In this document: positions 30,401 through 57,324 of the stretch, piece after piece
How the letters are laid out: every line of letters starts with the position of its first letter
Position numbering within the stretch: position 1 is the first letter of the stretch
Assembly (NCBI GenBank): GCA_903813345.2
Contig: CAIIXF020000001.1
Coordinates: 29,873,915-29,937,914 of the forward strand
Reading direction: 5' to 3'
DNA: 64,000 nt
DNA from: Owenia fusiformis
Lineage: Eukaryota; Annelida; Polychaeta; Sabellida; Oweniidae
Translations under genes and position numbers: made by a program
Notes under the pieces: generated by a model
What the model saw: only the letters and a program-made list of their open reading frames with translations
Told to the model about the DNA's origin: nothing
Database searches by the model: none

Positions 30401-33400
30401 AAGATAAAGTACATACTGGTATTATCATGATTAATGGAGAAACTGATTTGTCAGCACGGCTCATCCTTTTTTTTAATTAGTTTCTGAGGCTTAATAGAAT
30501 TTCAATCAAAGTTAGTAAAGCTAGAAAGTAAACTTTTAAAAATACCTAAAACTGAAATAATGCTTGATGATCTCGATTGACTTTTTAGATTGATATAATT
30601 TAGATCCTATTTAAGATTTTACATCACATAGAAGATTATAGATAATGTGCTAAGTCACTCGTGATTTGACTTTCTGAGTCGGGAATTAATCTCACTTCCC
30701 CTAAGAAATCTCTCGGAATCATGGGTCGTCTCTGACACGGGAAAGATTACTCTAAGAAATTACGAAAGTCAAGTTGGAAATCCCCCACCAAATCAAACAT
30801 TATTCTGATTGCATTGGCCCATTCGTTAAGCTTAAATACTATATGTCGGATTAGGATATAATCACGGAGGAGCTCATCAAGGAATAAACTTCCCATTATG
30901 AGGTCATTTATCATGCTCATAGCCACTGTTTGCCATGACAGATACATGGTACCTAGGCCCCTCTACAACCAAGAACCCTTCCCGAGCGATGAGCCCAATC
31001 TAACTCAGAAGTGATTATCTTACGAAGAGGATTATTCAATATTTGAGGATTACATATTGAAGAGTTGCCACGGTGATTTTATCTTGCATATCCGCCATTT
31101 TTATTGATTATGAGTTCAAAGCAAATTTGTTTTTGTACATGTGGTAATCCCCTGTAGTGACTTAGCCACTACCGTAATAGGATTCCGCGGCGCTAATCCT
31201 TTCTCTAGCCCCAGATTACTTCCTAACAAAAATTGCATTTACAATCTCATTTCATCACAAATCGCTGTTGGCAGCCATTTTAGAATATATTTTCTTGAAT
31301 CATCTCAACCACCTGTGTTTTGATAACAAATCCTAAATCTCCAAGCAATAACAGTGTTAGCATGCAACCTTTCTCATTAGCAGGTTCACAGTTTGTGTCA
31401 TATGTAATCATTAAAACATGTTAATCTTAGAAAATGAATTCATCTGGATTTCTGGCACAGGCTTTGTTTCTGTTATTAGCATTTGTGACAAACTCAGTCA
31501 TGATCTAAAGTCTCCTAGACATGCAAGTTTGATTAACTGTTTAACAGTTTGTGGCACATCTATACAAACTGACAAACTGTACAATTATTAAAAAGATGAT
31601 CCATTGAAACAAAGCATTTTCCAAACACTGCCAAGGCTAATTAATGTATTTAGCAAACACAAAGTAGAATGACAACCATGTATTTAGTTTTAAACTTCTG
31701 GATTATTGTTCAATATTGTATATAAGTTCTGGTTATGCAGCTTCAGCAGATCAATCAAAGAATCAGATAAGATAAGAGCAAAGAGAAAGAAAATATTGTA
31801 ATAAAAAATTCAAACAAAAATGTTGCTGGAAACATATGTTCAAAGTAAGTTACTTTTTAAATTGTAATTTTCAGTTCGGTGGAATTTTTTAAGAATTGGC
31901 GAGTATTCTGTTTTGAGGGATTTTTAAATACCAAGGTGTTAATAAAGAAGTGCCAGACTCTGATATTGTAATTAAAATTTAGATTGCATAACTGAATTGA
32001 CAGGCTGCTTTAAATATTTCCTTACTTTTGGATTTGAAGCAAAATGATTATATTTTATTGAACAATACAGTCTGTGTAATTCACAAAAGGTAATATCAGT
32101 TTATAATTACTGTAATTACATTAATATTAAAGCATTGAACAGATGTAGTGGCTAATCAAAATTGTCTAACTTTGATATTGGATGGTTACTAATAAAAGGC
32201 ATGATTGATGCGACTGAGGGGCTAATATTAATGTATAGACTAGAATCAGACTTGAGTGGGACGGTTGATAGGGCTTGATAGAGACATCTAGTGTTATCAG
32301 GTATAACTAGGCAAACTCCCAGAGCAAAGCATTCATTATCACCTTGACAGCCTACGTAGTAGACTAGTATATATAAAGAGACTAGAAGCAGAGATTTTCT
32401 CAGGAGAACGTTTCTTGAGGTGTGCCACATCTATATCTTAGGTTTCAGCGGGGCAACAGGTAGTCTCAGAGCTGCTATTCATTGTGCATTACGCTACGCT
32501 AGGATAAACATGACCGTATTATAGACACACAGGGCCATATAGTCACTAGTTGTCAGGAGTTTAAACATGGAGAACACACATATTTTACTCAGTCAAATGT
32601 CTTGGAAACGGGAGTTAGAAGATCAGTATATGAAAATGATAAACTTATATCAACAAACATCTCCACCTTCAGATGTTTCAGGAGATGTAGGAAAAGGTAT
32701 AATTTTATATTATTTATTATCAAAAAAGGCTTGACATTATGTTACACACAGCAACAATGGAATTAAGTTTATTAAAAGTTGTAAGGTTTTTAACTTTGCA
32801 AAGTTTCACGTGCCTTGATCTATTAAATGTTCTTATTTGTTCTTGTTGTCGATTGTCACATAGTAATTTAAGATAATTATTTTGTAGATAATTGGAACAT
32901 GCTATTGTTATTTACATACTAACTCATGGATTATACAATTGTCTTAAAATTGCTAGGGAATTAGCAGATACTTTTGCAAATTTCATTCTCAGTTGGTATG
33001 TCATGAGATCTTGCATTCAAATCACTAATAATCGCTCTTAACAAGAGGTAAATTATAGCCACTATAATTAAGTGTGAATTGTAAGTTTTGCTTGATCTCA
33101 TTAAAAAATCTTTGGTAAATCTTACATCCTGTATATTATTAATATTAGATATTTTTCTTGAGGAAGAAAATCAGTTTTAATCGTAAAAATTAATCCCAAG
33201 GCAAAGCATATAAGCTTATAGGAATTAAAAAATTCTATCACTAATTGGTATTGTTAATCAGCCATGTCATTTTGAACTGTTAGGGAAATAAAAGTGTGCA
33301 GTTCACTTACTATCAACTAGCTGTTAATCAAGATTTATTTTTGAAATACCATAAAACCTCTTAACGATTTACATAACATTAAGTTAATATGAACATTTCA

Positions 33401-36400
33401 TTTTAAAGTTTAAGATAATATGCCCATTTGCCACTTATATAATGCCATAAATGAATTCATGTACAGTATAAACATATATTTTTTATGATTTACAACAGTT
33501 TGGATATTAACTTTAAATTGATCATTTAAATATATGATGTTGTATATTTATTTAAATTGATGTCTGTTAGTTTCTTTACATTTTAACCATTCATCTAAAG
33601 GATATCCTATGATTTATGAGGGATATGAATTTTTTTTATTATCTGTGAGTTGGATATATCTCCATTTTTAATAGGTTAATTGTTTTTATTTGCATAATAA
33701 GTTATGTATTAAATTTTATTATATAAATTATAGGATGTTATTTTTATTCCATATTTAGATCAGTTCAAATCAAACTTTCTGAATAATTGACTGGCCATTA
33801 TGTATTGGATCATTAGTGAAAACATTTTTTTAATTTTTCTACTGGTTCCAAAAATACCATTTTTATTTTGACACAATATCCTGTGATTTCACAATAACTT
33901 TGGAATAATGCAATATATTTGCTACCCACATTTCCATTTTGTACTACATTTATCAAGAAAGATAATAATAATTAAAACATTTATCACTTATTAGCAGTAT
34001 ATGTTATTTGTATATAATGCGTTATCATAAGAAAATGTTGCTAATGAAACATGTTATCACATTATGTGGCACGCTTTTTATTTAGATCAATTTTTCGTCA
34101 TCATCTTCTTGTTATTTTATTCATTTATCATTTCATTTTATTTTACGGATTTTGTGTTTTGTGACCTTGAGTAGGAAGGAAGAGTCAGAGCTGTATATAG
34201 TTGCTTTCAGACGGATTACTGTGCCATCTATTGGCATAAAACAACTTTTTATTTTGTTAATATTGTGTGGTTTCAGGCAAAGCTATTCCGGTTCATTGCA
34301 TCATAGAGAGAGAACCGCAGGGTGGAGATACCCGATCACCCTCCGTAGAGGTGGACAGTTATGCCATAATACCAGCCCAGACACTCTTTAGAGAAGTCGT
34401 TCATACAGCTCTAGTTAAACTTGGTTATACATCAACTGAAGCAATCTCAGCTAAAGGTAGGTGATATATGAAATTATTAATGGTTCATGTATAGGGTTGA
34501 AACATGATAGCATTAGATGTTCTTCAGTAATAAAATCATGTCTCATGTCATAAAGTAATGATAAGAGCATTATTAATTATGGAAATATTTCTGTGTCGAA
34601 ATTTTGACCATACTGCATCCATGTGAAAAGTTAAACCATTTGATGTGATACTTGAAGAAAATAATGCAAAACCCGCATCATGGGATGCAAGATTGACATC
34701 ATTATTTGCAAGATTTGCATCATTGGCATTTCTTGAACCAGTATATACTTTTTATTAAAAGATTTACTCTAGTAAATTCATAGACATATTTAAGTTTAAT
34801 TTATAGGAAATTGATTTGCTTGTACATGTTTGTGTTATAATTGAAAAATAAACAAATTTATTTTCAGGTGCAATAGTAGTGAAGAATTGGAAACCTCTTA
34901 CGCTTGACATGATAACAGATCGTCCAGATGCGAATGTCGAAGAAATGTTTGCAGACCTCACCAATGTTATATCTCTTCGCATACGTCTTAGTAGGTTAGT
35001 ATGAGTTACTACCATTAGATGGGGTTGATATTCTATACAAAAGCGTATCGGAATTATCACTTGTCATGAAGTGTCTTTTAGTTAATACTAACACATATTT
35101 ATTTTGGTAACATAATATTAGATGAATAGCAGTCAGTCAACAATTTGTGCTTGGCCCCTATTCCTGCTTCTACTACTCTTTTGTTTTGTTTGTAGCTATT
35201 AAGCCCCACTGCCTTAAGAATGTTATGCCCCTCAATTCGTTTACTTGGGTCAATTACCTAACAGACCATGTTTCTGTGATATCTACAAGACTGTATTGTG
35301 TATCCGTGTTGCTCCGTTGTATTATTTGTAAATTTTAATTGATTTCATAAACTCGCAAGGCAAAAACACGATTTTTGGATTCAGTGTGCATTGAGCTACT
35401 AACTGTGAGAGTGTTTCAATAAAACCACGTGTTTACCACTGAGTGTTTACAACTAGGTGTTAAGAAAGTGAAGTGAGTTAGATTTGAGTGTTTAACTCCA
35501 TGTTTCAGTCGGACCAAGTTGAATTCATCCTCAAATGAGATGAAGGATAAGTTGTTGCAGTTACTGCTATCACAAGCCCATTCCAGCCTCGGCAGCTCAG
35601 GGTGCCCCATAGAAAAGGTATGTACAATTTTTATATTTAAAAATTTGATATATTCCAAATGCTCAAATAACAAACTATCAATTTTATGAGCTGCAGTGAT
35701 GTAGATAATACAATTTTAATATCATCACAGATTTGCTTGCTTATACTGTACGATGAAGGGAAATTGCTGTGTTTATAAATCGCAAGTTTATTTATGGATT
35801 TGGAAATGAAACACTGTAACTAAGGAATCACAAATATTTAGGATAAAAATATACTGTCATCAGCTAATAATTATTAGTTCATATTGTAACTCTGTGAATC
35901 ATTAACAAGTTTTACATGTATATTATGTTTGTGTGTTGCAGGAGCTACTACAGATGCTCTCTAAAGGTGGTAGCATACAGGACCTCCCAGAAGATGCAAG
36001 AAATGCATTTGACATCTGGTACAAATCACAATTGGAGAAATCAAACGGCACTAAGTCAACTATCCAGACATTGCTCAATCAGCCCCCACAGTCCACCCAC
36101 TCCCCCGTGGCACCCTCTCTGCCTCTAGGCCTCATTACCAGCCCTAGGACCAACCCTATCACATCAACTCCCACAGCATCTACCCCTATGGAGTCATTGA
36201 TGCACAGCAACCATTCTCCAGGCACATTGTCTATGTTGTACAAACAGCGCATTCGCACATCTTTCGATCCTGATCTCGAAATTCCACGACTTCAACAATG
36301 GTTTAAAGTCAATCAGCATCCCTCACGCACAGAGATGGTGGCCTACCTGAATGAGCTCAATTCGCTGGACTCACGACGTGAGCGCAAACCTCTAGATTTG

Positions 36401-37708
36401 ACCAACATCATATATTGGTTTAAGAATGCACGTGCTGCTCATAGACGTGCAAACAAGGAAGGTGGTGATGATGAACTTATCGATGACAGTCTAGAACATG
36501 AAGAGGGCCATCCAGAGGAGGAGGCTAGTGCTGGAGTTAAGAGCGAGGGAATGAGAGTACCAGTTGGTACACCAGTGGGTATCCCAGAGCTACCTAATCG
36601 TAATGCTGTGTACTTAGTAAACCCCTTGGGTGAAGAGCAGAGATGGTCTGCCCAGCAGGCAGAAGGAAGAAAAAGTGCAGATCTTGCCGCTCGAGGTAGT
36701 GATGAAGATGATGTGCCGCAGAACCTAAGCCTGAGGAAATCCCCAAGTCATATCCAAGAAGAGGCTGAAGACCTGAGAATGACTCCACAATCTGATAAAC
36801 ACACTGACCCCAACAGCTCACCTAGTAGTACAGATAGCGACAATAGGTGCAATGGAGTAAGAGATGTCAATGCTGAGGTTCGTGCTACAGGAGATGAAAC
36901 TATGGAATTTGATGATAAGCTCAAAACTCCACCTGGTGACTGTAATGAAAACCACACAAAGATATCTGGATCTCCATCAGTGAAATCAGAGCCTGATGTT
37001 AGATCAGAACAAGATGAAGATGGTTATGATAGTTCAGAGTCAGCTTCGTCCACACCTAGACCTGCCCACATGCCAGCCTACCCCCACTTGCAACATCCCT
37101 TGAACATGGCCTTCATGTCGCAGTACACAGCCAGTATGAAGGCCATGTCCCCTCATATGTCACCTCATATGTCCCCACATCACCTTGGGCTCCCTATGCC
37201 ACATGGCTTCGCTCAACACTATCCAAGTAAAATAGATGGCAGTATTACAGCAATCCCAACACGCAGCTACTCCTCCAGCGCAGCCGAGAGAGAAAGAAAG
37301 AAGCGTACTCGTGTATTCATCGATCCACTCTCAGAAATCCCAAAGTTAGAGCGTTGGTTTTTGGACGATACTCACCCCTCATCATTTATGATAGAGAAAT
37401 ATTGTGAAGAACTGAACAGATCAGAATATCGCCAACGATTTCCTAAATTGGAATCAAAAAATATCCAGCTGTGGTTCAAGAACCATCGTGCAAAGGTTAA
37501 GAGGCTTAGATTAGGACATGACATTAGTGAGTTTAATAGGCACCAGGTCCATGTGGAGGATGAGCCCAAGATGCCGTCTTCAGCATATGCCACTTCTCCA
37601 TTATCATTAGGGAACTCTTACTCTGAAGAAAATGGAGATGTTAAGCTTAAACAAGTGAGAGATTGGCCTCCGAGAGATCTCCCCATACAGGCTGGTGCTA
37701 CACATTGA
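12383..37708 (+). CDS. dve: Dve/SATB-family (Compass) homeobox transcription factor, long form
   Basis: Six exons join in phase: 12383-12466, 17399-17540, 34277-34456, 34868-34994, 35509-35617 and 35942-37708. They give 802 aa. Order of domains: a short N-terminus; a CMP/ULD-like oligomerisation domain (about 79-178) closely resembling the SATB1 N-terminus (IPVHCIIE, LGYTSTEAISAKG, KNWKPLTLDMITD); a divergent CUTL domain (about 184-250); homeodomain 1 (about 315-386, WFKNARA); an acidic Ser-rich linker with a CtBP-type PQNLS motif near 472; and homeodomain 2 (about 667-739, WFKNHRAK). Both homeodomains have Lys50-Asn51 and some 11 extra residues between helices 2 and 3, as known for Drosophila Defective proventriculus. 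The product is expected to be a nuclear DNA-binding regulator of TAATCC-type sites. The domain order separates it from vertebrate SATB, which carries two CUT repeats and one homeodomain. Exon borders are inferred from GT-AG sites and phase, not from transcripts. Confidence 0.88.
12467..13213. other. Start of dve intron 1, nothing recognised
   Basis: Non-coding sequence between the exon 1 donor and the mariner element. ORFs here are chance. Confidence 0.4.
13216..14336 (-). mobile_element. Tc1/mariner element with fossil transposase
   Basis: Ends CAGGGTGGGCC and GGCCCACCCTG with TA on both sides (13214-13215, 14337-14338), and inverted arms of about 350 bases with shared blocks such as AATAGTAAATCTGCGGAAT. 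On the minus strand at about 13960-13740 a decayed DDE transposase can be read: DFIFQQDIASYHRSQETLAF, then after a frameshift LDAWPSDRPNAT. These match the mariner F-QQD-A-H and WP-SPD-NP motifs. Stops and frameshifts make it dead. Confidence 0.85.
13740..13960 (-). pseudogene. Decayed mariner-type transposase fragment
   Basis: Only the second catalytic-Asp region is preserved (FQQDIASYH). A TGA stop follows some 20 residues later, and a frame change is needed to reach the WPSDRPN motif. The N-terminal DNA-binding half has been lost. Confidence 0.7.
14340..14576. mobile_element. 237-bp MITE with GTTACTTTGAC termini
   Basis: Left end GTTACTTTGAC-(7)-GTCAATGTAAC and right end GTTACATTGAC-(5)-GTCAAAGTAAC are inverted repeats, each itself near-palindromic. 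The left part matches 9436-9556 in reverse. It abuts the mariner element at 14338, so the mariner inserted beside or into it. Confidence 0.6.
15176..15365 (+). repeat. Dispersed repeat, copy 1 (partner at 33598)
   Basis: It shares ATGATTTATGAGTGATATGA and AAAAATACCATTTTTATTTG with 33598-33905, in the same order and strand. An old MITE with GGATATC-like ends is likely. No TSD could be seen. Confidence 0.5.
16926..17035. repeat. 110-bp near-perfect palindrome
   Basis: The left arm TTATGTCACTATGACGTGAA continues through ATATGCCT and, after a short interruption, CCCAAATATAG. The right arm is its inverse (CTATATTGGG ... AGGCATATTTCACGTCATAG). The spacer is about 13 bases. The arms contain CRE-like TGACGT. 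It is probably a small palindromic MITE in dve intron 1. Confidence 0.8.
17399..17540 (+). CDS. dve: dve exon 2
   Basis: A TTTATAG acceptor is followed by 47 codons plus 1 base, ending at TCAG|GTATTA (phase 1). The peptide is low-complexity and Lys/Pro/Ser-rich (SPKPGNSQDSLVTKDS and on) with a KMGMMKPGNSS stretch that echoes its own PKPGNS start. It continues exon 1 in phase 0 and meets the CMP exon in phase 1. A second frame from an acceptor two bases later is also open but does not fit the downstream phase. Confidence 0.6.
17541..20470. other. dve intron 2, 5' part
   Basis: Non-coding, with no transposon ends recognised. GGATTA/TAATCC words occur at 18872, 19233, 19243, 19261 and 19701; the three at 19233-19266 are clustered. 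Confidence 0.4.
20480..21050 (+). repeat. CAGATT/TTCATTGTCA tandem repeat in dve intron 2
   Basis: Degenerate units of about 25-30 bases built from TTTTCAGATT and GTTCATTGTCA, with a higher-order unit of about 125 bases (TCTACTAGCATATTATCTAT at 20697 and 20818). The 141-codon ORF across it is a by-product of stop-poor repeat sequence (Ser/Phe/Leu-rich) and is not a gene. Confidence 0.8.
21051..25500. other. dve intron 2, middle part
   Basis: AT-rich non-coding DNA without recognised genes or transposon ends. A short CCAT/CTGT low-complexity stretch lies at 21472-21516. Sparse TAATCC (for example 22789). Confidence 0.4.
25551..31705. promoter_or_regulatory. GGATTA/TAATCC-rich candidate regulatory block in dve intron 2
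   Basis: By eye I find about twenty GGATTA or TAATCC words: 25551, 25578, 25839, 25856, 26105, 26662, 26691, 26703, 28796, 28810, 28869, 29020, 29107, 30114, 30848, 31029, 31047, 31145, 31194 and 31700. That is roughly five times my rough base-composition estimate. TAATCC is the established site of K50 homeodomains (Bicoid, Otx, Dve), and the host gene encodes three of them. No transposon ends were recognised in the block. Function is inferred. Confidence 0.45.
32368..32378 (+). promoter_or_regulatory. TATA box of the proximal dve promoter
   Basis: TATATATAAAG lies about 190 bases upstream of the alternative start codon at 32567. This is the right strand and distance for a promoter with a 5'UTR of roughly 160 bases. 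No transcript data are available, and AT-rich DNA produces such strings by chance. Confidence 0.4.
32567..32696 (+). CDS. dve: dve alternative first coding exon (proximal)
   Basis: ATG at 32567 (context AAACATGG) opens 43 codons plus 1 base (MENTHILLSQMSWKRELEDQ and on), ending at AAAG|GTATAA in phase 1. That is the phase of the CMP exon at 34277, so this exon can replace exons 1 and 2. It would give a 770-aa form with module A. A TATA-like box lies upstream. The peptide is predicted to be partly helical. It has no family match I can name. Confidence 0.55.
33598..33905 (+). repeat. Dispersed repeat, copy 2 (partner at 15176)
   Basis: It contains CCTATGATTTATGAGGGATA at the left and CCAAAAATACCATTTTTATT at the right, as in the copy at 15176, with a longer, more diverged middle. 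Confidence 0.5.
34277..34456 (+). CDS. dve: dve exon 3, first half of the CMP domain
   Basis: The exon runs from a TTTCAG acceptor to an AAAG|GTAGGT donor, phase 1 at both ends, so it is symmetric. The encoded 60 residues align with the SATB1 ubiquitin-like (CMP) domain: IPVHCIIE corresponds to LPVFCVVE, TLFREVVHTALVKLGY to MLFNQLIEMALLSLGY, and AISAKG to AAQAKG. In SATB1 this domain tetramerises. The same role here is an inference from homology. Confidence 0.9.
34868..34994 (+). CDS. dve: dve exon 4, second half of the CMP domain and splice branch point
   Basis: A TTTTCAG acceptor and an AGTAG|GTTAGT donor bound 127 bases. The residues match the SATB1 CMP C-terminal half: KNWKPLTLDMITDRPDANVE corresponds to [20 protein letters not shown], and NVISLRIRLS to HVVTLKIQLH. 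It leaves phase 2, which fits both downstream acceptors, 35509 (module A) and 41268 (module B). It is therefore the likely choice point between the two C-termini. Confidence 0.9.
35509..35617 (+). CDS. dve: dve exon 5 (module A), first half of a CUTL domain
   Basis: TGTTTCAG acceptor (phase 2) and GAAAAG|GTATGT donor (phase 0). The residues MKDKLLQLLLSQAHSSLG...CPIEK correspond to the SATB1 CUTL segment VRNALKDLLKDMNQSSLA...CPLSQ. Similarity is weaker than in module B. The intron after CPIEK falls at the same place and phase as the one after CPLSQ in the module B exon, which shows common ancestry. Confidence 0.85.
35942..37708 (+). CDS. dve: dve exon 6 (module A), CUTL end plus homeodomains 1 and 2
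   Basis: One large terminal exon of 588 codons after a GTTGCAG acceptor. It completes the CUTL fold (NAFDIWYKSQLEKS), then encodes homeodomain 1 (Trp373, Lys375, Asn376 in the 802-aa form), an acidic tract, the PQNLS motif, SUMO-like VKSE sites, a Met-Ser-Pro-His repeat (three MSPH units), and homeodomain 2 (Trp725, Lys727, Asn728). It stops at TGA 37706-37708. Codon use is even and there are no frame breaks, so it is a functional exon. Confidence 0.95.
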   Translation, partial: ELLQMLSKGGSIQDLPEDARNAFDIWYKSQLEKSNGTKSTIQTLLNQPPQSTHSPVAPSLPLGLITSPRTNPITSTPTASTPMESLMHSNHSPGTLSMLYKQRIRTSFDPDLEIPRLQQWFKVNQHPSRTEMVAYLNELNSLDSRRERKPLDLTNIIYWFKNARAAHRRANKEGGDDELIDDSLEHEEGHPEEEASAGVKSEGMRVPVGTPVGIPELPNRNAVYLVNPLGEEQRWSAQQAEGRKSADLAARGSDEDDVPQNLSLRKSPSHIQEEAEDLRMTPQSDKHTDPNSSPSSTDSDNRCNGVRDVNAEVRATGDETMEFDDKLKTPPGDCNENHTKISGSPSVKSEPDVRSEQDEDGYDSSESASSTPRPAHMPAYPHLQHPLNMAFMSQYTASMKAMSPHMSPHMSPHHLGLPMPHGFAQHYPSKIDGSITAIPTRSYSSSAAERERKKRTRVFIDPLSEIPKLERWFLDDTHPSSFMIEKYCEELNRSEYRQRFPKLESKNIQLWFKNHRAKVKRLRLGHDISEFNRHQVHVEDEPKMPSSAYATSPLSLGNSYSEENGDVKLKQVRDWPPRDLPIQAGATH

Positions 37709-39415
37709 CATAGTTACACCTGAATACTAGTCTTTGTGTGTAATCTGCTATGATGGTAACTGAATCGTCTAGACACTGGTCACGCCAGTTGTCACAATCT
37801 AGAGCCACAATCCTATTGTTTGCCTAGACACTGGACACACTCCACTGTGTGCAATATGGCTGCCCATATTGGGAGCCAATCAAAAGTGTACATATATTCA
37901 CTGCTGACTCAGAATGCTCACTTGTTAACATAAATCCACTCAGCCATGAAACGTAGATTCAATATCCGTGAAATTATCCATGCCTAGTTGAGATTCACTT
38001 CCTGGAAAGTAGTCCATAATAATGTTTTAGGTATGAAAATTAATCTAATGCTTGGTTTTCTGTGTAAGCTCATTATTAACTGTTAATGCAATCATAGCGC
38101 GGAAAATCTCTCTCACATGAAAATAAAAACTATTATTTAATATCTACTATTTCAATGATGCAACAGGATTCAGTATACAAAGCGACAATCTACTTCAGTT
38201 TAAAATTGAATGGATAATTTGAGTAAACTGTGAGTGCAGTTTAAAATCAAAATATTGCTCAAATATCAAATAATGTGTGCATTGCACAATGAGGTGTAAT
38301 ATAGAAGATAGTTTGGTGCTGTATTGGTGTATGAAGGAAGATAGCATAAGAATAATATTTGAATATTGTCTTGTTACTCACATTGGAGATTTATAATGTA
38401 TTTTGAAATTAAGATAAGCTATTTAATATAATTGTTCTGCCATTCATTAATAAATCACTATTGAGGTTTTCAAATTTTTATTGATAGTTTTCCTGTGTAG
38501 AAAGCATTTATATTTTAAGATGTTTGAAATATTCAATCATCTTGCTTGAGCATTTGATTATTATATAGATGTATTAAACATTCCAGTGTATAATTTCTAA
38601 TTTGCTTTTGCATTTAGTCTTCAAAGCGCTATATTTAATCATTCCTGTACCTTGCTTATCTTGTGTTATATCTATATGGAATATACCTTCCACATACAGA
38701 ATTTGTGAGCGTGCTTAATGTTTTATCTTTTATATTGTCAAGTGTACCACGAGTTGCTATTATCTGTATATATTTTGTTTGCCATAAAAGGGTGTATGTA
38801 TATATATAGTAAGCCACCTATGGGGTAAAAGCCACGGTACTCGCTGTACATTGTAATTATCATAGACTTATTGAAATGTACATGAAATTTAAATATTTTT
38901 GCTACCAGAATATTTAGAATAGAATAGTTTAGTTTGTGTTAACACAGGGTTCCTGAGAAACAGCAGAATAATGAAATGTACACGCTAAAACTTGATCTCA
39001 AAATATTTGCCAAGTTGGGGTATGAAGTTTTAAAGATGTAATCTTATTTATTTATTTTGAAACCCCTATGTATTTTGAGGCACCCTTATCAAGTATAGAT
39101 TTAATGAACAGTAGTTTCATGTAGTATGTTAACAGTGTTACATGTACAAATGTAAATTGAGGTAGTTTTAGTTTAAAGGTGAAGGGGCCATTGCAATTTA
39201 AACTTTAAACAATAAAAAGTGCAAGTAAAACTAATGTGCAAAATGAAATGCAAGTAAAACTGATGTGCAAATTCATCTAAATTCATCGTCTTTAATTGTA
39301 GTCACCGATGATATTAAAATTCAAAATAACGGTTCACCGTTTTATGGTGTTTTGTGAAATGTGAATGTATTTTGTCTGTTCACAAATAAAGTATGGCACT
39401 AAGAAACTTAATCCT
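37709..39415 (+). other. Probable 3'UTR of dve module A
   Basis: AT-rich sequence without ORFs. Candidate poly(A) signals AATAAA lie at 38122-38127, 39211-39216 and 39385-39390. The last is followed by GT-rich sequence and is the likely main end. The 3'UTR would be about 1.7 kb. Confidence 0.5.
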
Positions 39416-41267
39416 TATTTGTTATGTCTATGTGTGGAAAAGTTCAGACAGTAAAACAACCAAATAATATTGGAGTCATTCTAAAGAGTAAACATAGCAA
39501 CATTTGAATAATGCATTGTAGCAAGTCTTGATTCTGGCCAACGTGTTACCCCCTCCCCCTGCCATCCCATGATCTATTTTAAGGCAATATTTTAGAGACC
39601 ATGCCATGATATCTGGATATCCATAGTACATTTCATATACAATTGAGTAGTACTATTTTACAAGAGGTCCACCATATTTCAAGTTAATCCTTAAAGGCTT
39701 ATCAGTAGAAAAAGTGAACATCCTCTTCAACTTTTAACCAATTAACCTAAGCTTAAAGGCAGTATCAGATCTAGCAAGATCCTAAAGAGTACGCTTGGCA
39801 AAAATTGTTTCAATTTTAGAGTATTTTGAATCCTAATAACTTCACCGATTTATACCATATTGTGGATCTTTCGGGATTCATTATATTTGAGATAGTAAGG
39901 AATATATTGGTAGGTCAGCTGCTTGCAATTTTGCCACTCCCTATAAATCTGATTCTGCCTTTAAGATTGAAGGATTATCTTGAAATAAAGTGACTCTTTT
40001 CCCAATACTTTACTGAATTGTCTTTTGGATCATTTTCTTTTTTATTCAAATTGAAATAGTCAGGGAATTTGTGAAGTGCTCCAAGAAATGGTTTGGAAGT
40101 TTTTGTATGGCCAAACAATTCAGGGAATTTCACCTTGCCAAAAACAGATTGTAGTCAGGGGATTTCATCCAACTAGAAATACTGTAATATTACCTTTTCA
40201 TTCAGATATTCTATATTATAGTTTTTCTAACCACCCAATAGACAGAAGGTCACTCTTACTGGCTAACAATTTTTTCATATTTCATCTTCATAAACAAAAG
40301 TGGTAGATCTGATCAAATAAAAAAATGTTTGCCAAATAATTTGGCTATAAAATATGACATTTTGATTAATTGTATTTGACTGCCATCTTTAAATACATCA
40401 ACATAAATAGAGATAACCTTACATGGGATATTATAATTATCCTGAGTATTATATATCTGCCCTAGTGACTGAGATCCCAAGGGTATAACTTCTCAGATAT
40501 ATGAATTATTGAGATTTTAGGTTGGTGGTGTTGCCATTTAAACTAACTCAACTAAACCTAATTAAGAAATAAGAAATAAATATGTTTCCTCCACACCCTT
40601 TGATACTCTGAACCCAGAGGCTAAAAGTACAATTCATTACACACAAATGAGTCCATCCTTTTAACCTGAAAAGTGTAGAGTAGTATAACCAGAATTCCAA
40701 AAATGATGAGGCAAATATAAATAGGTGAGGCAAAACAATGAACAAGATTATTGCACTTTAATGGGACATACTTTATGAAAAACATTTTATAATATTTTTC
40801 AATGGTTTAGGTGAAGCTCAGATGCGAAGTAAAATAATAACTCTTAAATCTACAATTCAGATAGACACAAGTTTCTTAATAAACGTCTTTTAAATTGACC
40901 TAATCTTAAAAATAATCATCTATGTGACTATAACTCATTAAAAGCTCAAATCTGACATCAAATTTTAGATCTGACCTTTCATTGACCATTACTTATATTA
41001 GTGACCTTCAAAAGGTCAATTTGGCCTAACTTACTAATCTATCCTAAATAAATAACGGCATCTTATAAGTAATTTACTTACTAACTAGGAAACTAATTCA
41101 ATAGCAGTAACTTAATTATGGTAAAAATCATTTAAAGATATATAGTACTATTATGATAAACATTGATGAAGAAACAAGAAACCGAAGTTAACATAATAAC
41201 ATAACATAATTTTAACAATAATTAAAAAAAAAATTATTATCTAAATAATAACTGTTTTTTGTTGCAG
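39416..41267. other. Intergenic or intronic gap between dve modules A and B
   Basis: No CMP-like exon, start codon in a plausible exon, or repeat with clear ends is visible. The absence of a second CMP exon here is the reason to treat module B as an alternative end of the same gene rather than as a complete second gene. Confidence 0.5.
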
Positions 41268-41367
41268 AAACAAGGAGTGGAATGATCAAGCAGTACGCAG
41301 TGCAGTTAAAGAACTTCTGAAAGAAATGAATCAGACCAAGTTATCACAGCTATGTCCTCTATCTCAG
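41268..41367 (+). CDS. Module B exon 1, first half of the CUTL domain
   Basis: A polypyrimidine-rich GTTGCAG acceptor and CAG|GTAATT donor bound 100 bases entering in phase 2 and leaving in phase 0, the same phases as exon 5 of module A. The residues (RNKEWNDQAVRSAVKELLKE and on, to CPLSQ) are strongly SATB1-like. Confidence 0.85.
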
Positions 41368-42988
41368 GTAATTGGCACTAATTCCCTCAATATGATGTTG
41401 CTTGCTTCTACATCCGTTCAGAATCTATAGTCATCTTACCCATTTTAAGTTGAAGGGATTCAAATGATAAACTTGCCTGAGTGAATTGTTTCTTGCGATA
41501 ATCATGCAAGAGAAAATTAAATTTAGACCCTGTATGGTGGGTGGGTAGGTGGAAATCCAACTAGGTATGGGGTGGTAAATTACAGAATCCCTAATTTTAA
41601 TGCTTTGATGCGATTCCTTTTTGCCCATGCAACTTAAACTGAAAGATTCAAATAAGATTCAAGAGAAATCTGCCAGGGTATACAATCTATACCCCTATAC
41701 AACAAAATCACTCCATCACTTTTTGAGAGGGGTTCACACAAATGGCTTGATGCAAGCTATTGTCAGAGCTATCTAATCTGGATGAGTTAGCAAGTTTGCA
41801 ATATTTGTTTTTCCACATATGTTTTAATTCAGTCAATTCGGATATATGTCTCTGGATGAATCAAGTACCTTTATAATTGATATATTGTTTCAAAGTCATC
41901 GAGAGTACAGGATTACATTATCATGGTACTTATAATGTAGCTATATTGACATTTTCATTAATTTTCATTTCCTAACATAATACCTTGTAAAATACTTATG
42001 GTAACAAGAGCTAATCTAATAATGAAAATACTGTTACTAATTCCTTGTGTGGAAATGAATGTTTTCCTCCAATTTTTGTTTCAGACTATGATATCCACAA
42101 TTGCCAACTCAAGATATTCAGCAAAAATTTCAGAGCAAACATGTGTAGCATTTGGCCAGTGGTATGATGAATACAAGCAGCAGGCCAAAAGTAAGTACAC
42201 TGCAGCTGTACAAGGCCAGAAAAATAAAGATTTGTTGTAACTTGTGATTAAGTCCCTGATGATTTTAAAAGTAGGTCTGACATTAGTTTTCTCAGTATCT
42301 TAAGTTACAGGGTGTCCAAAAAAATTGTACCCAAATGAGATGGAAGTAATATAACTCTTTTTTCTTTCATCGAAAATTTTTCAATAAGCAGTCAAAAATT
42401 CATTGAAATTTGTGAATAGCTTCATGAGTTTGAAATTTTAGATGACATGCTCTAAATGACCTCAATCATGAGCAATGCATGCATGCTGTTTGTGTTGATT
42501 GTCCAGAAAGCTAAACAGCATGCAGTTATATGTTATTCATCTGTAGTCTCAACTATCAATCTGGCAATTAAGTATTTCCAGATATCAACAAATAGCTAGT
42601 AACTCCCCCCCTGGACCCAGAACTGTTAAACCAGACCTCATGACCATACATGTACTTTGCAGGTGAAGAATTCAGCGAAGGTCCACCTAAAGACTCAAGG
42701 ATAACATTTCACCCTATGTATGAAATACCACAGATGAGACGCTGGTACAAGTCAGATAAATCACCATCTGAAGAATCGCTAAAATATTTCCTAAATGAAC
42801 TTAATAAAGGACCTGTAAGACAAGATAGACCAAAATTAACATTAGCTAAAATCAAAATATGGTGGAAAAATGAACGTTCAAGAGAAAAAAAAATTCAGAA
42901 TAAAACAGCACAGAAAATGTTAGCAGAGTTGGAAGAGGAAACTGCAGGTCTGGACGATGATTCTGACTTTTCAGATATGTTGCTATGA
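41268..42988 (+). CDS. dve alternative 3' module B: CUTL domain plus third homeodomain
   Basis: Three exons, 41268-41367, 42085-42190 and 42663-42988, are joined by GT-AG introns. The first acceptor needs phase 2, exactly what dve exon 4 (34994) supplies, giving a 354-aa protein of CMP + CUTL + homeodomain. The CUTL part is closer to SATB1 than module A is: VRSAVKELLKEMNQTKLSQL, CPLSQ, then MISTIANSRYSAKISEQTC and GQWYDEYK. The homeodomain (about 258-327) has IWWKNERSREK with Lys50-Asn51 and the 11-residue insertion, and an acidic C-tail (DDDSDFSDM). AATAAA lies 40 bases past the stop (43028-43033). The alternative reading is a tandem paralogue whose own 5' exons were not recognised. Confidence 0.8.
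42085..42190 (+). CDS. Module B exon 2, second half of the CUTL domain
   Basis: TTTCAG acceptor, AAAA|GTAAGT donor, 106 bases, phase 0 to 1. It encodes TMISTIANSRYSAKISEQTC followed by VAFGQWYDEYKQQAK, aligned with SATB1 [20 protein letters not shown] and EFGRWYKHFKK. Module A has no intron at the end of this region, so this intron distinguishes the two copies. Confidence 0.85.
42305..42530 (+). mobile_element. Mariner-like terminus fragment in a module B intron
   Basis: TACAGGGTGTCCAAAAAAAT at 42306 resembles the terminus at 13216 and a fragment at 6059 (TACAGGGTGACACAAAAAAT). No matching right end is evident, so it is a solo or truncated end. The right limit is uncertain. Confidence 0.4.
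42663..42988 (+). CDS. Module B terminal exon, homeodomain 3
   Basis: A TTTGCAG acceptor opens 108 codons. Homeodomain 3 runs from SRITFHPMYEIPQMRRWYKS to IWWKNERSREKKIQ, with Trp48-Trp49-Lys50-Asn51 (Trp replaces the usual Phe49). It ends in an acidic tail rich in Glu and Asp, then TGA at 42986-42988. Confidence 0.88.
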
Positions 42989-43027: not shown

Positions 43028-43033
43028 AATAAA
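43028..43033 (+). terminator. Poly(A) signal for dve module B
   Basis: AATAAA 40 bases after the stop codon, followed by a G/T-rich stretch (ATGATGGGGG). It fits a short 3'UTR of about 60 bases. Confidence 0.5.
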
Positions 43034-43194
43034 ATGATGGGGGAACTCAGATGTTTCCGAATCTTGCTACTAAAAGGCAATGGCACAATATTTGCCATAC
43101 GTATAGCATTTCCTTTATCAGTTTACAAGTTGCAAAGTCTGCTACATGTATTTTTTGTATATACAGCTGTATGTTTGAAGATAGTTTAATTATC

Positions 43195-44308
43195 CCATCG
43201 AACGAAGTTCGGAGGGATATAGGGAACGCCTCCGTCCGTCCGTCCGGGCAATAACTCCAATACCGTTGGCCCGATTTTGTTCATATTTTGTACACATATA
43301 CCCTATGGGGGTAGAAGTTCTGCTCGAAAGCTGATTTTCAAAATGGCCACTCATTTCAAAATGGCGGCCATTTTAGTGACGATTTTACAGTAATTTAGGT
43401 GCAATATGTAAAACTGTAATAGCAATATGTTTTAAATGTAAAAAAATTATAAAGGACATTAATAATGCTACAAATGTAGATATTAAAAAAGCACATGGCA
43501 GCCATCTTGAAAAATGACAGCCTTTACTCGTCATTTTACGATTTTTGCTGTAACTCAAAAAATAGTGGAGCGATTTTGTTCATATTTGGTGTGTGAATAC
43601 TATAAGCATTGCACACTGTCTAAGGACACTTTTCAAAATGGCCGCCATTTTAACGTATTTTACTATAACTCGAAAAGTAGTGGAGCGATTTTGTTCATAT
43701 TTGGTATGTGAATACTATAAGCATGGCACACTGTCCTATGACACTTTTGGTAGAAGGCGGCCATTTTGAAAACAATTTTGAAAAATGGCCGCCATTTTAA
43801 CGTATTTTACTATAACTCGAAAAGTAGTGGAGCGATTTTGTTCATATTTAGTATGTGAATACTATAAGCATGGTACACCGTCTATTTCTAATGATGCTTT
43901 TGGTAGAAGGTGGCCATTTTGAGAAATGGCCGCCATTTTAACGTATTTTACTATAACTTGAAAAGTAGTGGAGCAATTTTGTTCATATTTGATATGTGAA
44001 TACTTTAAGCATGGCACATTGTCTAATAAAACTTTGGGGAGTAGTCGGCCATTTTGAAAAATGGCCACCATTTTTATGTGTGTTATTTTACAAGTACGTG
44101 TGCGATTTTTCAAAAATTTTAGAGGTGGCTACTTAAAAGCATATTGTTTCTTCTGATGACAACTTGGCTAGTGAGGAACCATTTTGAAAATGGTGGCCTT
44201 TCTGGTGTGTTGTTTTATGATATTTGCGCTTCGTTTGTAAAAATGCCAGCCATTTCTGTTCGATGGGATTCGCTACGCTGGCTTTGGCGTTGCCGTTGTT
44301 CTGGTTAT
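43195..44308 (+). mobile_element. Repeat element with YY1-like palindrome array (copy 2)
   Basis: It starts CCATCGAACGAAGTTCGG and ends near GTTCGATGGGATTCGC...GTTGTTCTGGTT, partly inverted. The inside is a tandem array of 117-149-base units with GGAGCGATTTTGTTCATATT (43567, 43684, 43833, 43975 with changes). Each unit carries AAAATGGCCGCCATTTT-type palindromes. (CCGT)n at 43233-43247. It is an inverted relative of 7427-8117. Confidence 0.75.
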
Positions 44309-44422
44309 GATATAGCTGATAGAGAAAAATAAATTATTTTCTTATGATACCAAATTTTAATGGAGCTAAAAATCTGTGTTACATTCGATAGATCTACAGT
44401 ACTGTGTTAGATGGGTTAGTGA

Positions 44423-46137: not shown

Positions 46138-46682
46138 TCAAGATTCATCATCACTATCATCTGCTTGTAATCCACCAGAGAAAATCCTTTTCATGAATGA
46201 TTTATTATTTCCAACTGCAGCATCAGAGCCTTTCTGTTTCTTTTTCTCTGGAACTTTTTCATCTTCAACACCTTTGCGCTTTCTCTTTTTATCCTGAATT
46301 TCATCTTCTGTTGCAGCTTGGTGAAACTCCCAAGGTCTAAGATTCAGTGTTCGTTCTTTTTTCTTTTCAATTCGTTTGAAAGCTTTTCGCTTTTCAATGT
46401 TATCGATATAGAAATTTGTTTCTTTTTTGACCTGGGCAATTTCAGTTCTCATACGGTGTGTGTGCACTGCACTTTCATATGCAAGTCTTTCATTTAAATG
46501 AGCCCATTTAAAGCGATGGAGGTACTTCATCATCCAGACTTCTTCATACCAGGGGCTTCTCCGTTTGCCCCCAATTTGTTTGTTATTAAGGGTAACAGCA
46601 ACTTGCTTAGCAATCTTTTTATCCTTGAACTCAATCCATCCTTCTGAGAATACTCTATTCTTCTTATGTTCTGGGGCCCTCT
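46138..46682 (-). CDS. ABT1: ABT1 exon 2
   Basis: The acceptor TTTTCAG precedes ERAPEHKKNRVFSEGWIEFK. The exon runs to a TGA stop at 46138 with no frame breaks and carries most of the conserved ABT1 core and the Lys-rich C-terminus. Confidence 0.93.
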
Positions 46683-48826
46683 CTGAAAATAGAAAACTAC
46701 CTGTCAAAATATTTTTCAACATGCTTTAACAAAAATTTCTTTACTCCAAACACTGGTCAAGGTATTTTGTATTTTATGGTTTTCAATTAAACCATTACAC
46801 ACAATTTTTATAGTTCATGTGCCTTTAAATAAAACTTGTTTAATCCTTACGCCACTTGGACCAGCCAAAAATGTTCAGAATGGCAGGTGTTCACATTTAG
46901 AATGGCAGACTAAACAAGGCATTAACATGCAAAATGTCACAACATGCCATTTGTTGCAGATGCCATCCATCAAATGCCAAACACCAACTGCCTAACACTA
47001 CAAAAAAGTTGGAGACTATAACAATATGTCACCACTTGTTGTGGTGAAATATAAATGGGATTGGAAAATTATTTTGAGGTGTCTAGATGAGAGAAGAGTT
47101 TAGATTTACAGGTTTTACTCTAAGTTGTCACTTGTACAAATAGCTTAAAGATAGGCTTAAAATTTTAAAAATTAACAAGAAACGGGGTTACAGATTGTTT
47201 GCCTCCAGATCATTGGAAGCAGTAGTGACGGATTAGATAAGCTACTTCATGAAAAGAGGTGAAGTATAGAGCTGAATTCAGTAACTGTAAAAAACATTTT
47301 AGAACTCCTGAAGAATAGTTCAAATCTGAGGACACTGCAACAGTTTGTGGACATGGTATAAGTAGAAGTTTTAGAGTAACTATGACTATTATTGCCATTG
47401 GTTTCTTTACAAATCACTGTGAAATTATGTTATATAGCCTCTAATTTGAATGTTAAGTGATTACTCACATACATGTACAGTGTAGTTGTTAATGTCAATT
47501 TGAAATTTGTTCTAAAACATATTTGCATAAAGAGAAACTGCTTATATTGAGTAATTACACAACAAAAGTGTTAAAACTACTGATGTCATATACTACAACA
47601 TCATTGATTATTTGTGGTAGATACATTTATTGTAAGGAAACAAATCATATGGTTATACCATCACTAAAACATACTTAAAGCTATAACATGTTTATAGCAA
47701 CAATTCCCATCTTGTCTAGGTTTCAAAATAATAAGTTAATATTATTTCAGGTGATAATTAAAAATAAAACCAATTTTTTATTTATTTCTGGTTTCTATGG
47801 TAACACCATAATATTAATTCTCAGGTCACATTCAAAAATATATTTTCCACTGTTAGAAACAAGATTTCCTACTATTATGATTCTGATTAGGGATTGGTTT
47901 AATTCATGAATAATGGTACGGAATTCACTAAATTTAAATTATGACACTAATTGATGGAATGTATGTTGTAAACCTTATCAAAACTACAATGATATTTTTT
48001 CATATTGAAACCATTTGGCGGCTCACTTTTATTTTACATCAAAACTAGAAAATAGCAAGAATATGACAAAAATTGAGAAATATTAAGTCAATTTTTGGAC
48101 TGACGAAACATGATCGGATCCCTATGGAAATCCCAAATTGGGAAATCCCTGGAAATGGATTCTTAAAAATGGGTAACAATTTTTGGCATTCAACTGACGA
48201 TACCTCAAGAAAAGCCAGAGTTTCCTGAAGATTGGCATTGCAAACGAAGCTGGCCTAAGGTAACACAAATGTGAAGAGGGGTGATGACATATGTCTCTGA
48301 TTGGTCAAAATCGAGGCCTCAAAAGTTTCGAAATGCGCTTCAGATAATATTATGTTCATTTCTGGCGAGTTAACTATTATAATAGCTAGTTATTTCACAT
48401 CAATAAATGAAGATGTATGGAATATGCTTACATCGATAAAATATCACAAAGATTTATCGTATGCTACGTCCCCACTACGTTGTGGATTTGATAACAAAAG
48501 ATGTGTTATATTCGAAAACCAACTGTTGATTTAATAAGACCAAATTCGGTTGTATGGGCGACCTTCGGCTGCGGGGCATTATGGCCCAACCTCGGTTGAA
48601 TGGAAAGGCTGTCTCTAATTTAACAACCGGATGTAGAGAATTGAAAATTACCATCTGGTTGAAGGAAGATTCTGTCCAATTCACCGTATACACTGAATAT
48701 CTGACGTATCTTTTTAACACTCATATACGTAGGTATTCTACTGAAATATATTATTCCTGGTTCCTTTGCTTTTTTCTTCGACTTTTTGGTGGTTTTAGAA
48801 GCAACTTTTTCATTTTCAACTTCCAT
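46138..48826 (-). CDS. ABT1: Activator of basal transcription 1 (ABT1/Esf2), ribosome-biogenesis RRM protein
   Basis: Two exons on the minus strand, 48826-48652 and 46682-46138, join in phase 1 (CCAGATG|GTAATT and TTTTCAG|AGAG) to give 239 aa (human ABT1 has 272). A Lys-rich N-terminus (TTKKSKKKAKEPG) precedes the RRM (IIYFSRIP as RNP2-like strand; FSEGWIEFKDKKIAKQVA as RNP1-like region, corresponding to human YTEGWVEFRDKRIAKRVA). The ABT1/Esf2 signature follows: RRSPW, KYLHRFKW, and a basic coiled region ending RPWEFHQAATEDEI. The tail has KKRKRK-type nuclear signals and an acidic DDSDDES end. In yeast, Esf2 acts in early 18S rRNA processing with the DEAD-box protein Dbp8, so the same nucleolar role is expected. 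A poly(A) signal (AATAAA on the minus strand) lies at 46037-46032. Confidence 0.93.
48652..48826 (-). CDS. ABT1: ABT1 exon 1
   Basis: ATG at 48826-48824 (AATAATGG) starts 58 codons plus 1 base, which cover the basic N-terminus and the first half of the RRM (PGIIYFSRIPTYMSVKKIRQ and on, ending LQPD). The donor is G|GTAATT. The intron of about 2 kb (48651-46683) contains no recognisable element. Confidence 0.9.
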
Positions 48827-49904
48827 TATTTCGATAGCGTAATCCCGCAGAACATGTGAAATGAACCTCCGGTAAATATATTTTTCATCAATTCTCTTTT
48901 TATTTATATACTTTAGAAAGGGTTTAAGCCCGGGGTTTAAGTAATTTATATTTCGTATGTAGAAACGGTAAAATATGGTTTCACTAAAGGGATTTATTCA
49001 ATGGGGTTATACTTTCTTGTGTTCTTGTCGATCTATTCAGATGGGCTTGGGCTAACCATGGGCTTTCAACTAGAAGGGTATGCAACTCTATGTAATAACA
49101 TGAGACCTTCAAAATGAGCAATGACATGCTTCCCTTTTATGGCAATATTTCAAAAAGTATTAGATAAATGTATATGTTTTAGTATTATTTTGAATAAAAA
49201 TCAATTTTTTAATATGATTTAAGCATAAAATATATTCAATATCATATAAAAGTAAACAAAAGGGTAGTTTAGAGAATACAACACCAAGAAAATGCATGCT
49301 GGTGGCTCCCAGAGGGTATACACATTTTTCACCAAGTGCTTTTTTCATCTCCAATCAAATTGCAGGATTCGATCACGTGAACAATCATGGGCACATGCTT
49401 TCTCAGTGCTGCGCATGCGCAGAGTTAAATTTGAAATCGTGGGAATGGCGTTTACATCAGTTCAACATCGTCATTTCAAACCTACGGTAATACTATTGAA
49501 GTTACACGATCCATACTTGTAAAGAATACTCATAAAACTACAGTGAAAATTTGGAGATCCATTTCAACGGCAAATTGAGGCCTGTTTATAAAATTTGTTT
49601 TCGAACGTGCTAATATGATAGGGCATCTTTGGGGAATCTCCCCCCTGGCCAACACGGTAAAATACCGAATGGCGAAAAAAGCGAACGCATTCCGTTCGGT
49701 CTTTGCACGCGATTGCCGTTTATGTCACGCATTTGGTACAAAATATGTGTATATATCACTCATTTGTTTCGAAAATATTCACATCTACTATATATATTTT
49801 GCAAGTGGATCCAAGAGACCAAGTGGGCAAGTCAATTATTTTGCAGGGGTGGCATGATACACAGATTTCAATTTTGTATATAGTGAATTCCCAGTGATTG
49901 ATTT

Positions 49905-56505: not shown

Positions 56506-57155
56506 TTGATAGTGCTGACTTTGCTTTCAACTCAAGGGTCTACGCTTCCCACATTTCATACATAATCATAGTCCAACTTCATTAAACTCAATAACGGCGT
56601 TCTTTGCTATTAGGAATTTTGTTGGTCATTATTGGGTTTAACCCCCTTACTATTCTTTCCTTTATGAAAGTCCTTATTCAAATCAGCCCCATAACTATAC
56701 TTGTGTATTGAAATCTTTGGGTTAAAAATAGGCTGGATTTAATGGTTATTTAGATAAAATTAAGCTTTGAATCAACAACTGACAATGTTTTAAAACCCCA
56801 AGATTTCAATACAATAAAGTAGTTGTGGGATGACTTGAAAAATCGACCCCACATTTATGGGGTAATTTATGTATGGTCCAAACTGAAGGGAGAAGGGCAA
56901 TTTGTGATTGGGATTCAGACGATTGGGATTTGGATCATTGGGATTTGGACCAATGGTGTGCCCTCACTATTTCAACCCCACGTAGATGATATCCTATTAT
57001 CCTCACACCAATATGCCAAGAGTTACAAATTTCCTCTGAAAATAGGGATGTGGGAAAAGCCGGAAGACTTGCTGAGGATAAGATCAAGGGAGACATCAGG
57101 GAATCTGTACCTGGAAACCTCTCCCCCACTACATAAAAATGTTTGATATTTTTAG

Positions 57156-57324
57156 ATGAGGACAATAGACCAGGGTTATGTGTCAACTGTAGGATGTTTG
57201 AGACCCCAGACTATTCACACCTCACCAAAAGCTCAATATTTGAAGAGATCTATGAGCCTGCAGAAGATACATTCTTGTTACTAGATGCCATTGAAAAGGA
57301 TTATAAAAATATAAAATCAATCAA
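57156..57324 (+). CDS. N6AMT1: N6AMT1 first coding exon (includes an upstream open stretch)
   Basis: A TTTTTAG acceptor at 57155 and an AA|GTATGT donor bound the exon. The coding start is ATG 57194 (MFETPDYSHLTKSS and on). The 13 codons before it (EDNRPGLCVNCR and neighbours) are open but have no human counterpart, so I take them as 5'UTR. Confidence 0.85.

Follow-up and report, generated by a model that had tools for sequence, protein, structure and literature searches.

The Cmp/Cmpl homeobox locus was described by Cavalieri et al. in 2013 (PMC3784565) in the sea urchin Paracentrotus lividus, with conserved organization in two further sea urchins and in the acorn worm Saccoglossus kowalevskii. 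In P. lividus, exons e5-e6 (CMP) and e7-e9 (CMPl) are mutually exclusive after a set of shared exons, as documented by cDNA and quantitative PCR (qPCR). CMPl is 396 amino acids (aa) long and has 233 identical N-terminal residues in common with CMP. Cmpl mRNA lies ∼three- to ten-fold below Cmp by qPCR, and the CMPl protein binds to boxB, an element of the sns5 insulator. The arrangement was called exclusive to ambulacrarians (PMC3784565). Here we describe a locus in a 64,000-nucleotide stretch of the Owenia fusiformis assembly GCA_903813345.2 (contig CAIIXF020000001.1, positions 29,873,915 to 29,937,914, forward strand; hereafter the window), which is probably a single-copy Cmp/Cmpl-type homeobox gene with two alternative C-terminal modules.

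As far as the sea-urchin and Saccoglossus loci are described in the available text of that paper, the Owenia locus resembles them in having shared Compass exons upstream, a single locus and a choice of terminal module, here predicted from sequence. The order is also the same: a two-exon module with two insert-bearing homeodomains (module A) is followed by a three-exon module with one (module B), in which W48 is kept. The shared N-terminus is shorter in the Owenia model, 145 aa versus 233 aa in P. lividus. Unlike the published loci, the Owenia locus is assigned to a protostome, not to an ambulacrarian.

Two further groups of genes are relevant. The product of module A resembles Drosophila dve, C. 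elegans dve-1 and amphioxus Bf-Compass in combining a Compass domain with two homeodomains that carry a 10-residue insert and K50; K at position 50 is listed for the CMP subclass (PMC4901127). The second C-terminal module and the CUTL of the Owenia locus set it apart from these genes, for which the available review text describes neither. SATB proteins oligomerize via a Compass domain and bind DNA by CUTL (PMC10515288, PMC4901127), and Satb genes have been found in vertebrates only (PMC10515288). Within the open-licence literature, the accessible parts of these two reviews report no CUTL outside SATB. The origin of SATB has been called unclear (PMC7873079), and has also been ascribed to domain shuffling from Cmp (PMC3784565).

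Gene model

All features of the locus lie on the plus strand. Three exons are shared by both predicted forms. E1 (32567..32696) opens with an ATG at 32567 and is the first coding exon of the model, a further upstream exon being possible; E2 (34277..34456), where a ULD match lies, encodes the first part of the Compass/ULD domain, and E3 (34868..34994) its last part. The coding sequence through 34994 comes to 437 nucleotides (nt), that is, 145 residues and one split codon, which places the common donor at the end of E3 in phase 2. Module A consists of A1 (35509..35617), which holds the first half of a diverged CUTL-like region, and the terminal exon A2 (35942..37708), which holds the second half, two homeodomains with 10-residue inserts (HD1, 36242..36457; HD2, 37298..37513) and a TGA stop. 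In module B, the two halves of a SATB-type CUTL are encoded by B1 (41268..41367) and B2 (42085..42190), and the terminal exon B3 (42663..42988) carries the third homeodomain (HD3, 42689-42904) and a TGA stop.

The rebuilt models agree with the initial annotation that one phase-2 donor (34994) faces two phase-2 acceptors, at 35509 (atgtttcag) and 41268 (ttgttgcag), and that A1 and B1 have equal phases (2 to 0). The E3 donor reads gttagt, and every intron of both gene models is GT-AG. Among 26 crude acceptor candidates between 37709 and 43000, the one at 41268 is followed by the longest stretch that stays open in phase 2 (160 nt, against 103 for the next).

Starting from the ATG at 32567, the A form has 770 aa and the B form 322 aa; the lengths of 802 and 354 aa given initially were not reproduced. 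An in-frame TAG at 32540 lies upstream of this ATG, so the 32 extra residues would need an upstream exon. A scan for such exons in one form only (86 coding nt, then GT[AG][AT]G) returned a sole match at 14250-14335, 18 kb upstream, which nothing else favours and which was not accepted.

It had also been claimed that module A has poly(A) signals of its own. The hexamers are there: nine AATAAA lie between A2 and B1, spanning 38122 to 41047, of which those at 38122, 38449, 39211 and 39385 (38122..39390) are candidate signals of module A, and another at 43028..43033 is a candidate for module B. As evidence for poly(A) sites they are weak, because the window is AT-rich (34% GC).

Some minor features touch on splicing. 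The shared donor, AG/GTTAGT (34995-35000), has a T at +3 and, judged by eye, is weaker than the gene's remaining donors, which may fit regulated splicing. RBFOX-type TGCATG sites were not found within 34995-42085. The A1 donor (35617) and the B2 acceptor (42085) are both phase 0, and a hybrid A1-B2 splice, giving a half-A, half-B CUTL followed by HD3, would thus keep the frame.

Domains of the predicted proteins

In Pfam, the B product matches ULD (E 1.6e-32) and CUTL (E 6.7e-19), and its homeodomain stays below the cut-off (E 0.0035) because the insert probably lowers the score; the scan found no CUT domain in it. Residues 42-211 match the SATB1 ULD-CUTL tandem structure 4q2j (E 7.8e-36), and since this match runs across the E3-B1 junction it argues that E3 truly joins B1. 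In the A product, Pfam recognizes ULD and two homeodomain stretches. No CUTL was found in module A by Pfam or PDB sequence searches, and the PDB entries returned (recA, tepsin) were taken as chance.

Between F/Y20 and W48, HD1, HD2 and HD3 each hold 10 additional residues; all three have K50, and HD3 retains W48. The A product accordingly has the composition that defines the CMP subclass: a Compass domain, two homeodomains with a 10-residue insert, K50, and no CUT domain. The B product has its ULD directly followed by CUTL, like vertebrate SATB1 and SATB2, with 170 residues aligning to 4q2j. It differs from the SATB definition in lacking the two CUT domains and in its CMP-type homeodomain, which has W48 and a 10-residue insert where the SATB type has F48 and one inserted residue.

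AlphaFold2 was given the three homeodomains of the window, B3 first (107 residues). The HD3 model (mean pLDDT 80.2) comprises three helices, and the insert forms a further, short one. Foldseek with this model against the PDB gave 243 matches at E≤10 and zero at E≤0.001. The best 50 of the 243, with TM-scores by target of up to 0.88, are presumably homeodomain proteins; the fold predicted for HD3 is that of a homeodomain. Two kinds of motif are confined to the A form, PxNLS once (aa 441) and VKxE twice (aa 381 and 529), which we take to be CtBP and SUMO motifs, respectively.

A single locus with related modules

The genome searched comprises 498,259,871 bases in 525 contigs, and searches of this kind may miss weak or masked copies. 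A genome-wide ULD search returned three matches at E≤10, and only E2 and E3, which precede B2 by 7-8 kb, exceeded the cut-off. Thus no Compass exon was found between modules A and B, in line with the initial annotation, and none over the cut-off elsewhere. The third ULD match (contig C7, E 0.45) contains one stop and was taken for chance after its surroundings were inspected. The corresponding CUTL search at E≤0.001 found B2 only (7 candidates scored). With HD3, rather than HD1 or HD2, as the query, the homeodomain search at E≤10 found HD3 itself, HD2 (48.2 bits) and HD1 (44.5 bits), these being the three candidates scored. Two broader searches, of viral_contigs with a homeodomain alignment and of genome_contigs with the ULD-CUTL protein, gave 127 pattern matches and 19 matches, respectively, none of which was confirmed.

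Pairwise identities among the homeodomains are 29/69 (HD1-HD2), 24/65 (HD1-HD3) and 25/70 (HD2-HD3). The CUTL of module B is unmistakable, with 32 of 64 residues identical to SATB1 (shuffle Z 35). For the CUTL-like region of module A, 13 of 57 residues are identical to SATB1 and 10 of 45 to the B CUTL; in each comparison, 1 of 2000 shuffles reaches the score (p 0.0005). Among 3,222 six-frame decoys drawn from the window, 6 score above this region, and all six overlap B1/B2. The introns in the CUTL region, after CPIEK in A and after CPLSQ in B, map to the same SATB1-aligned residue. We consider with moderate confidence that the A region represents a strongly diverged CUTL. Several of the claims first made for this pair of modules stand: the intron position is shared, the B CUTL is the more SATB-like of the two, and a tandem duplication is supported by the HD3 search and by the common intron place. 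The CUTL homology itself is clear on the B side, while the A side is very diverged.

An alternative is that there are two adjacent genes, A with the Compass exons and B a separate gene that has a promoter and 5′ exons to itself and lacks Compass. The distance from the module A stop to B1 is 3.6 kb, with the nine AATAAA in between, and in the Pacific oyster the annotation has two Cmp genes with consecutive numbers, Cmp1 (CGI_10015221) and Cmp2 (CGI_10015220) (PMC5322547). Such numbering would be expected if a locus of this kind had been annotated as two genes; the adjacency is read from the numbers. Against two genes, the B1 acceptor is in phase with the E3 donor, the joined ULD and CUTL align to SATB1 4q2j across the junction, no further ULD over the cut-off was found in the genome, and sea-urchin cDNAs join the equivalent exons (PMC3784565). 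We regard two genes as unlikely, and a single gene with two terminal modules as the better account.

Lineage markers in the genome

A bantam sequence at C9:32750705 is identical over 23/23 positions to the mature sequence of the snail Biomphalaria and lies in a hairpin (z -4.18). The Biomphalaria miR-1994a sequence, tabulated with bantam in PMC7328434, occurs with one mismatch at C1:56578354, also in a hairpin (z -3.47). On that strand, at a distance of 1.9 kb, there is a second miR-1994-like copy with two mismatches, hairpin folding having covered the first copy only, and the pair is on the same contig as the Compass locus. The chance expectation for a one-mismatch match to a 22-mer in this genome is ∼0.004 (uniform-base estimate), and a lone two-mismatch match means little. 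miR-1994 is a lophotrochozoan microRNA. bantam has been described as characteristic of protostomes (PMC8824774) and as a protostome family (PMC12256650). The sea-urchin miR-2012 and miR-2011 sequences (PMC4669494), the former supposedly specific to xenambulacrarians (PMC11521371), had 0 matches at ≤1 mismatch genome-wide, a threshold that more diverged copies would escape. Searches for COX1 and for Bindin returned 0 matches, a result that for Bindin is no proof of absence. From these microRNA markers, we assign the genome with high confidence to the protostomes, and within them probably to the lophotrochozoans. On this assignment, the locus lies outside the ambulacrarian lineage given for the published Cmp/Cmpl locus.

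Discussion

In the most likely mechanism, the locus chooses between alternative terminal exons. The shared 5′ exons encode the Compass domain (ubiquitin-like oligomerization, ULD). Joining of donor 34994 to A1, with use of the poly(A) site of A, would give a CMP/Dve-type protein with two homeodomains; joining past A to B1 would give a shorter CMPl-type protein with a SATB-type CUTL and one homeodomain. The DNA-binding half would thereby be swapped and the oligomerization half kept. Because the ULD is common to both forms, it is plausible that the two could mix in one oligomer. The initial annotation had likewise proposed Compass exons that choose between two C-terminal modules. This matches the published Cmp/Cmpl locus, and the two-ended gene is consequently not new, having been described for sea urchins in 2013 (PMC3784565). 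Since the sea-urchin locus has cDNAs and qPCR, the splicing proposed for Owenia borrows experimental support from it, and by analogy exclusive splicing would occur in Owenia too.

Several observations weigh against a Cmp/Cmpl-type gene in a protostome. RNA support for the junctions comes from the sea urchin only. Support for a CUTL in module A is weak: the homology draws on pairwise scores and intron position, and hhalign gave a local E of 0.0012 (probability 19.7) and a global E of 0.01 (probability 1.8). HD3 has an insert of 10 residues, and the published CMPl homeodomain one of 11, rich in K/R, which is why module B is named CMPl-type here and not a member of the CMPl family as published. 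Cavalieri et al. searched several metazoan databases and reported no CMPl outside ambulacrarians, as far as the available text goes (PMC3784565), and the accessible part of an annelid survey of S. lamarcki transcriptomes has one Cmp entry and nothing called Cmpl (PMC6118893). As to the lineage, Rfam gave no match at the gathering threshold at the bantam locus, which leaves sequence identity and the hairpin as the basis of this call, and a reversed miR-1994 control pattern also had one match at ≤2 mismatches. Finally, fragments of tektin-2 and tektin-4 score higher with 8snb, which we take to be sea-urchin tektin, than with the best of the chains we take to be mammalian (308 vs 262 and 137 vs 118 bits).

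The last of these bears on the possibility that the genome comes from an ambulacrarian, for example a crinoid, and that the locus is another Cmp/Cmpl gene of the published type. The tektins are nearer to sea urchin than to mammals, and the claim of exclusivity in PMC3784565 speaks for this possibility too. The tektin scores leave this possibility unrefuted, because the comparison had sea-urchin and mammalian chains and no protostome tektin. However, bantam and miR-1994 are both present with hairpins, miR-1994 on the very contig of the locus, miR-2011 and miR-2012 were not found at ≤1 mismatch, and the HD3 insert of 10 residues rather than 11 departs from the published type here as well. An ambulacrarian origin is very unlikely. 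That module B is a decaying, unexpressed relic is scarcely credible, as its three exons are free of stops and frame breaks, its splice signals are all intact, half of its CUTL residues are identical to SATB1, and the core of its homeodomain is kept.

With a single Cmp/Cmpl-type gene in a protostome as the preferred reading, ambulacrarians are probably not the only animals with this locus type, which would predate the protostome/deuterostome split. If the lineage assignment is right, a published ambulacrarian synapomorphy falls, and the Cmp/Cmpl choice dates back at least to the last common ancestor of protostomes and deuterostomes. Two points look new: the occurrence of the locus type in a protostome, and the SATB1-type CUTL in module B. 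CUTL is recognized in the Owenia module, whereas the 2013 main text never mentions CUTL, cut-like or CUT domain; the CMPl sequence itself was not compared.

The origin of SATB thereby becomes testable, given that a domain credited by two reviews to SATB alone already occurs in an invertebrate gene, where exons of a predicted splice form encode it. We see an even chance that protostomes and deuterostomes inherited the two-module locus from a common ancestor, so that it is no ambulacrarian invention, and that SATB obtained its CMP-CUTL front half from the CMPl form. In this scenario, the CUTL exons of the B type would have been retained in vertebrates and module A lost, with CUT domains and another homeodomain added. 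The SATB front half could plausibly have its source in the CMPl form, which would then be a missing link between Dve and SATB. The proposal could equally well go either way, because no root can be placed on three CUTL sequences and A may just be evolving fast. The locus would also offer a compact case of terminal-exon choice that swaps the DNA-binding half of an oligomerizing factor.

Other features of the window

Upstream of the locus, 17399-17541 is open, looks coding (PKPGNSQDSLVTKDSIPLTPQKEEKLVKMGMMKPGNSS) and is preceded by a possible 3′ splice site; it had no Pfam match at E≤0.1 and is possibly an exon of another gene. Downstream, two minus-strand open frames (46138-46725 and 48620-48997) matched nothing in Pfam over the cut-offs, with RRM_1 only at E 0.04; their resemblance to exons of an ABT1/Esf2-type ribosome-biogenesis gene is our assumption, unsupported by Pfam. 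The same applies to a plus-strand open frame at 57137-57400, which has no Pfam support at E≤0.1 and which we presume to resemble the start of an HEMK2/N6AMT1-type methyltransferase. A repeat element at 43150-44330, downstream of module B, comes after a CCGTCCGTCCGTCC tract and consists of four ∼149-nt copies that are 69-100% identical to the reference copy; similar translated words were seen by eye near 7.4-8.0 kb.

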